DNA of 38,231 bases from an uncultured beta proteobacterium (GTDB lineage Bacteria > Pseudomonadota > Gammaproteobacteria > Burkholderiales > Burkholderiaceae_C): the NCBI GenBank assembly GCA_903863395.1, contig CAIPBW010000043.1:1-38231 (forward strand), given 5' to 3'. Both the position numbers and the translations under genes were made by a program. This document shows, piece by piece, positions 33,543 through 35,108 of this stretch (positions are counted from its first letter, which is position 1; each line of letters begins with the position of its first letter). The notes beneath the pieces were generated by a model. It was not told the DNA's origin. It saw only the letters and a program-made list of their open reading frames with translations, and searched no databases.

Positions 33543-33564
33543 CTGGACCCAAACCACACTCCCC

Positions 33565-33643
33565 GCAGAGATTGGGGCAGGGGTCTGCGCCGATATTCTG
33601 GGCATTTGACAGGTGAGGCGCGGGCCCCTGCCCCAATCTCTGC
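33565..33643. repeat. 19-bp perfect inverted repeat, 41-nt loop with an inner GCGCC/GGCGC pair
   Basis: gcagagattggggcagggg (33565-33583) is the exact reverse complement of cccctgccccaatctctgc (33625-33643). Confidence 0.95.
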
Positions 33644-33734
33644 CGCCAACCCTGTTCGAGTCGTCTTGGGTTCCCTGCGCTCGGGTAAAATCGCGCGGCA
33701 CGCAACTGGCGATAGGCGCATACCCTACGGGTCA

Positions 33735-33815
33735 CTGGGCTGACGTGGGACACCACGAGGAAGCGTGCCGCAGGCTTGATGCAAGCCCCCGCGTTCAGCC
33801 GTTCGCCTGGGCAGC
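33735..33815 (+). ncRNA. ZTP (pfl motif) riboswitch upstream of glyA
   Basis: cactgggctgacGTGGgacaCCACgaggaagcgtgcc ... linker hairpin GGCTTGatgCAAGCC ... gttCGCCTGGGCAgcc; resembles the pfl/ZTP consensus as I remember it (GUGG...CCAC GGGAGC plus CGCCUGGGCA) and lies before glyA, a known ZTP target. Confidence 0.78.
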
Positions 33816-33863
33816 CCTTGCCTCATCGGGTATGAGCAAGGATCAGTGTCTTGAAAGACTGCC

Positions 33864-35108
33864 ATGTACCACCGCAATATCCTCGTTGAACAAACCGACC
33901 CCGAACTGTTTGCTGCCATCCAGGCGGAAAACGCACGCCAGGAACACCACATTGAGCTCATCGCCAGCGAAAACTACGCCTCGCCCGCCGTGATGGCGGC
34001 GCAGGGCAGCCAGCTCACCAACAAATACGCCGAAGGCTACCCCGGCAAGCGCTACTACGGCGGCTGCGAGCACGTGGACGTGGCCGAACAGCTTGCCATC
34101 GACCGCGTCAAGCAGATTTTTGGCGCCGATGCCGCCAATGTGCAGCCGCACTGCGGTGCCTCGGCCAACGAGGCGGTGTTTCTGGCCTTTCTCAAGCCCG
34201 GCGACACCATCATGGGCATGAGTCTGGCCGAAGGCGGTCACCTGACCCACGGCATGGCGCTCAACATGAGCGGCAAGTGGTTCAACGTGGTCAGCTACGG
34301 CCTCAACGCCAAGGAAGAGATTGACTACGAAGCGATGGAGCGCAAGGCCCACGAAGCCCGCCCCAAGCTGATCATTGCAGGGGCCAGCGCGTATTCGCTG
34401 GCAATCGACTTTGCGCGCTTTGCCAAGGTGGCCAAGGACGTGGGCGCGATCTTTATGGTCGACATGGCGCACTACGCCGGTCTGATTGCGGCGGGCCTGT
34501 ACCCCAACCCGGTGCCGCACGCCGATGTGGTGACGTCCACCACGCACAAGAGCCTGCGCGGCCCGCGCGGCGGCATCATCCTGATGAAGTCCGCGCACGA
34601 AAAGGCGATCAACAGCGCCATCTTCCCCGGCCTGCAAGGCGGCCCGCTGATGCACGTGATTGCGGCCAAGGCGGTGGCCTTCAAGGAAGCGCTGCAGCCC
34701 GAGTTCAAGCTCTACCAGCAGCAGGTCATCACCAACGCCCGTATCGTGGCCGAAACGCTGACCGCGCGCGGCCTGCGCATTGTCAGCGGCGGCACCCAGA
34801 GCCACGTGATGCTGGTGGATTTGCGCTCCAAGGGCATTACCGGCAAGGAAGCCGAGGCCGTGCTGGGCAGCGCCCACATGACGATCAACAAGAACGCCAT
34901 TCCCAATGACCCCGAAAAGCCCATGGTCACCAGCGGCGTGCGCATCGGCACACCGGCCCTGACCACGCGCGGCTTCAAGGACGAAGAAGCGCGCACCACC
35001 GCGCACCTGGTGGCCGACGTGCTCGACAACCCGCGTGACGCAGCCAACCTCGACGCCGTGCGCGCCAAGGTGCGCGCGCTCACCACCCGCTTTCCGGTGT
35101 ACGGCTAA
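33864..35108 (+). CDS. glyA: Serine hydroxymethyltransferase
   Basis: [65 protein letters not shown]. Confidence 0.97.

Follow-up and report, generated by a model that had tools for sequence, protein, structure and literature searches.

Transcriptional ZTP riboswitches work by an established mechanism, in which an invader located downstream of the aptamer displaces the P3 helix unless the ligand is bound (PMC10085676). The mechanistic studies of ZTP riboswitches found in the open-access literature deal with terminator types. In the Clostridium beijerinckii pfl riboswitch (PMC10085676) the downstream strand enters P3 from the 3' side when ligand is missing, and the glyA leader described here would behave alike; in C. 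beijerinckii the resulting helix acts as a terminator, whereas in this leader it would be a short one beside the ATG, with a spacing hairpin inside. Pfl elements preceding the same gene in bacteria of the same order are those of Cupriavidus metallidurans, which is induced by trimethoprim (PMC10882993), and of Herbaspirillum seropedicae (PMC7011215). In the Pectobacterium carotovorum ZTP riboswitch (PMC10117056), expression of a translational lacZ fusion requires the ligand, as glyA expression would here.

The window, i.e. the whole stretch of DNA analyzed, measures 38,231 nt and derives from an uncultured beta proteobacterium, whose genus may be Rhodoferax, judging from the likeness of the leader to that of Rhodoferax lacus (L025). 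A single copy of the ZMP/ZTP aptamer was found in the genome. It spans positions 33692–33819 of the + strand, ends 44 nt upstream of the glyA ATG (33864), and matches the full RF01750 ZMP-ZTP model (1–86) with 55.2 bits (cmscan at the Rfam gathering threshold, cut-off 39; E 1.8e-6). The original prediction of a ZTP riboswitch before glyA is thus sustained by the covariance model, but the start assigned to it (33735) is not, as the aptamer begins 43 nt further upstream. The 5' side of the pseudoknot, a known trait of the ZTP riboswitch family (PMC10085676), is GGCG (33708–33711), its partner CGCC (33804–33807), and both fall at conserved positions of the Rfam alignment. The same alignment places the P2 hairpin GTGG-GACA-CCAC at 33745–33756, and P3 (33798–33812) as GCC (33798–33800) paired to GGC (33810–33812). 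These are the only three P3 pairs kept in relatives. All these elements lie on the + strand, as does glyA (33864–35108), which encodes a serine hydroxymethyltransferase of 414 aa (Pfam SHMT, 552.6 bits) serving one-carbon metabolism, and is followed by nrdR. With a full-model score, a one-carbon gene downstream, and both the GGCG/CGCC pseudoknot and P3 in place, the leader is well supported as a standard ZTP riboswitch, a fairly ordinary member of the known family. It shares with the RF01750 class the full-length aptamer, P2, P3, pseudoknot and glyA as gene, and differs in lacking an intrinsic terminator and in having the partner strand within the spacer between Shine-Dalgarno site and ATG. 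An 84-bp palindromic element, REP- or MITE-like, with arms GCAGAGATTGGGGCAGGGG and CCCCTGCCCCAATCTCTGC and scattered over the genome in about 15 copies, resides between the aptamer and a gene encoding an SLT domain (33563–33646).

Of 301 genomes from the family, 236 carry the aptamer, as do 33 of 61 genomes of the genus and 17 of 200 sampled from the order. Members of the genus devoid of it have mostly small genomes (~2–3 Mb), several of the assemblies being incomplete, and riboswitch loss in the genus looks as if tied to genome reduction. Two ZTP aptamers per genome were found in G259 and G056; one of those in G259 (L106) has no glyA match beside it, and its target may be a different gene. 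Leaders compared include 80 named glyA loci (mostly from Comamonadaceae), some 130 loci from the family, and some 50 from the genus, the latter both with and without the aptamer. Most share one layout (...CGCCTGGGCAG-CC...hairpin...AGGACTGCC-ATG), which is not peculiar to the window genome. Burkholderiales leaders outside the family of the window feature other, mostly longer platforms.

Two short motifs stand out in this layout. The first is GGCAG (33810–33814, + strand), made by the P3 3' strand and the AG following it, and found in 154 of 177 unique leaders. The AG is conserved, yet mostly unpaired in the aptamer, the flanking bases facing it (usually CA, CC, GA, AA or TA) being mostly mismatched. 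The second is CTGCC (33859–33863, + strand), the candidate invader, which lies directly before the ATG and is the exact complement of GGCAG. A GGCAG-CTGCC helix and P3 would be mutually exclusive, as they share the GGC strand. CTGCC precedes the start in 126 of the 154 unique GGCAG leaders, and in 3 of the 23 carrying another strand. Pairing of the strand with the last 22 nt yields −10.25 kcal/mol, against −5.95 for shuffled sequences.

Association of the motif with the aptamer is best seen within the genus. CTGCC occurs in 25 of 26 aptamer-bearing leaders, and in none of the 23 aptamer-less ones (Fisher, 4e-13), 20 of which still have GGA, the Shine-Dalgarno core; the 26th aptamer-bearing leader has TTGCC, which pairs with its own GGTAG through G-U. 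In nrdR leaders, used as background, CTGCC was found once in 73. At least 8 changes of aptamer state were counted on the glyA tree. Among about 7 independent pairs, CTGCC is present or absent along with the aptamer in 5.7, and none shows the reverse association (median p 0.03). True double changes are few, because the 5-bp helix hardly varies. Lampropedia hyalina (L071) carries GGTAG in place of GGCAG, ATC as P3 5' strand and CTACC as spacer; all three partners have been altered together, so that both alternative helices are preserved. Changes are preserved by G-U pairs in L113, L026 and L073, and in L118 the pairing between the strand and the start region spans 11 bp. The helix is broken in some aptamer-bearing leaders (L003, L010, L046, L068, L134), and some lineages lack the pair altogether. 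Searching 401 genomes by pattern for P3 variants with GGT was uninformative, the pattern being too unspecific. In ten leaders from aptamer-bearing lineages (L132, L137, L146, L168, L174, L179, L180, L201, L205, L208), mostly without CTGCC at the start, a conserved CAACCCTAGA or CAACCCTTGAG replaces the Shine-Dalgarno site. In the L005 and L039 glyA leaders Shine-Dalgarno site and invader are tandemly duplicated (AGGACTGCCTCCTCAGGATTGCC before the ATG).

Between the two motifs lies the linker hairpin CCTTG-c-CTCAT-cgggt-ATGAG-CAAGG (33816–33841, + strand), followed by ATCAGTGTCTTGAAAGA and then by CTGCC. Its sequence is exactly as originally described: 10 bp, one bulge, no T-run downstream. The hairpin folds, but its energy in the window alone does not establish it (z = 0.25 for a 79-nt stretch, no better than shuffles, and about −2 for a 32-nt stretch), and single-sequence folding was discarded as proof of its existence. 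Folding the entire leader of the window without constraints, a check proposed in the original prediction, yields neither switch state cleanly. In 166 leaders, the arms of each hairpin pair better with one another than with exchanged arms (−8.7 vs −6.5 kcal/mol, z about −14), so the hairpin is real and selected for pairing. The stretch from GGCAG to CTGCC measures 20–86 nt among leaders; once the hairpin is subtracted 18 nt remain (IQR 17–19), against an IQR of 16–25 in shuffled sequences, the last 12 nt being kept outside the fold in both sets. In six leaders devoid of hairpin GGCAG and CTGCC are separated by 20–24 nt in all. Hairpins vary widely in length and sequence, the Shine-Dalgarno site does not. 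In the simplest reading, the hairpin is a spacing element letting GGCAG reach CTGCC; it probably does not act as the switch, and competition for the Shine-Dalgarno strand may be a further role of it in some relatives.

The glyA leader is likely to be a translational ON riboswitch sensing ZMP/ZTP, in which CTGCC invades P3. Aptamer, complementarity, co-conservation, loss of the motif along with the aptamer, and spacing are read from the sequences; ligand response, ON direction and translation as the regulated step are what we infer. Without ligand, CTGCC would invade P3 and pair with GGCAG, dissolving P3 and closing a multiloop around linker hairpin and Shine-Dalgarno site, so that ribosome entry would be blocked. 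When 10-formyl-THF is short, ZMP/ZTP would accumulate and stabilize P3 and pseudoknot; GGC would be retained by P3, leaving both CTGCC and the Shine-Dalgarno site free, and GlyA would be made. The hairpin would be a largely constitutive spacer fixing how far apart the two arms lie. In folding models, the 12 nt preceding the start have an openness of 0.55 with P3 formed and 0.35 with the strand released (0.53 and 0.34 in the window), with almost no difference in leaders lacking CTGCC (0.61 vs 0.58). For the window, the computed energies of the ON and OFF folds (−18.9 and −18.4) hardly differ; they refer to stretches of unequal length and come from a model which excludes pseudoknot and ligand. 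The original prediction proposed that the platform may act on translation, or by another route, rather than through a terminator. The lack of a terminator holds, and control of translation is the reading that fits best, with the mutually exclusive GGCAG/CTGCC pairing expected to hide the start region; the switching helix would however be this pairing and probably not the hairpin.

Other explanations differ on where the switch acts and on what the hairpin does. No intrinsic terminator-like site was found on the + strand, either overlapping the aptamer 3' end or, as a T-run, after the hairpin, and a platform of this type was rejected. Rho termination is a frequent consequence of uncoupled translation, and the switch might act on transcription, e.g. 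by Rho-dependent termination of the untranslated leader, or on RNA decay, translation being secondary. We regard this as quite unlikely, the conserved partner strand sitting in the Shine-Dalgarno-to-ATG spacer, where a transcriptional switch would not need it. In Cupriavidus metallidurans, trimethoprim raised expression of a pfl-glyA-lacZ operon fusion, a reporter of transcript level (PMC10882993). This speaks for transcriptional control, but the Cupriavidus leader compared (L081) has a different, longer platform; with the same reservation, this induction is consistent with the ON direction. The hairpin might alternatively be a true anti-sequestor, opening without ligand to let the CCCTT of its 5' arm pair with the Shine-Dalgarno AAGG and extend GGCAG/CTGCC, and re-forming with ligand to hold the 5' arm. 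In relatives, GGCAGCCCTT and AAGGACTGCC can indeed pair with one mismatch (−13 kcal/mol), the L118 pairing is perfect over its 11 bp, a C-G pair of the extension seen elsewhere is U-A in L070, and AAGG is more frequent where the arm carries CCTT (45/77 vs 27/69 leaders). Yet own arms match the Shine-Dalgarno site hardly better than swapped ones (3.20 vs 3.13 pairs, 4% of permutations being as good), hairpins vary widely where the site is constant, some leaders have no hairpin, and the predicted OFF fold of the window retains it inside the helix. AAGG being AAAG in the window, the CCTT/AAGG extension is broken there. Support for an anti-sequestor role through CCTT/AAGG is weak, and such three-way competition is unlikely.

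The Shine-Dalgarno site of the window raises a further alternative. Most relatives carry AAGGA or AGGA at this place; the window has GAAAGA (33853–33858, + strand), a weak site (AAAGA, 33854–33858), and the original remark that no strong site precedes the ATG holds for this genome. An AAGGA within the hairpin 3' arm (33838–33842) was discarded as glyA Shine-Dalgarno site, as it lies 21 nt from the ATG, and a start at the nearby GTG (33847) yields only GTG TCT TGA. The platform might be decaying in this genome, the G to A change leaving glyA weakly expressed or unregulated; AAAGA in place of AAGGA is rare elsewhere (AAGACTGCC in 4 of 146 leaders). Decay seems very unlikely, as GGCAG and CTGCC are preserved, the two arms of the hairpin match, and the aptamer still reaches 55.2 bits. 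The 16S tail reads CCUCCUUUCU in many betaproteobacteria; the 16S 3' end was not found in this assembly, but with such a tail GAAAG would still pair over 5 nt.

Translational ON control through invasion of P3 by CTGCC is the reading we retain, and within this known riboswitch class the platform may represent a variant not described before. No description of such a platform turned up in the open-access papers searched, which do not include the founding 2015 paper. In leaders from other Burkholderiales families (L308, L310, L311, L314, L315) the complement of GGGCAG(CC) is GGCTGCC or CTGCCC and lies at a long distance from the start codon. In these leaders and in L307, the position of the complementary strand far upstream of the start suggests a different, longer platform. 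Pairing of the P3 3' strand thus appears to be wider than the start-codon layout. Tentatively, a translational ZTP platform, undescribed so far, could be shared across the family, in which the spacer between Shine-Dalgarno site and ATG is the invader and a freely varying hairpin fixes the distance of the arms. If so, most glyA leaders of a large betaproteobacterial family would use a translational form of the P3-invasion principle, natural losses of the aptamer would reveal which bases serve the switch, and the leaders would provide a ready series of variants for learning how a 5-bp invader beside the start codon competes with the aptamer.
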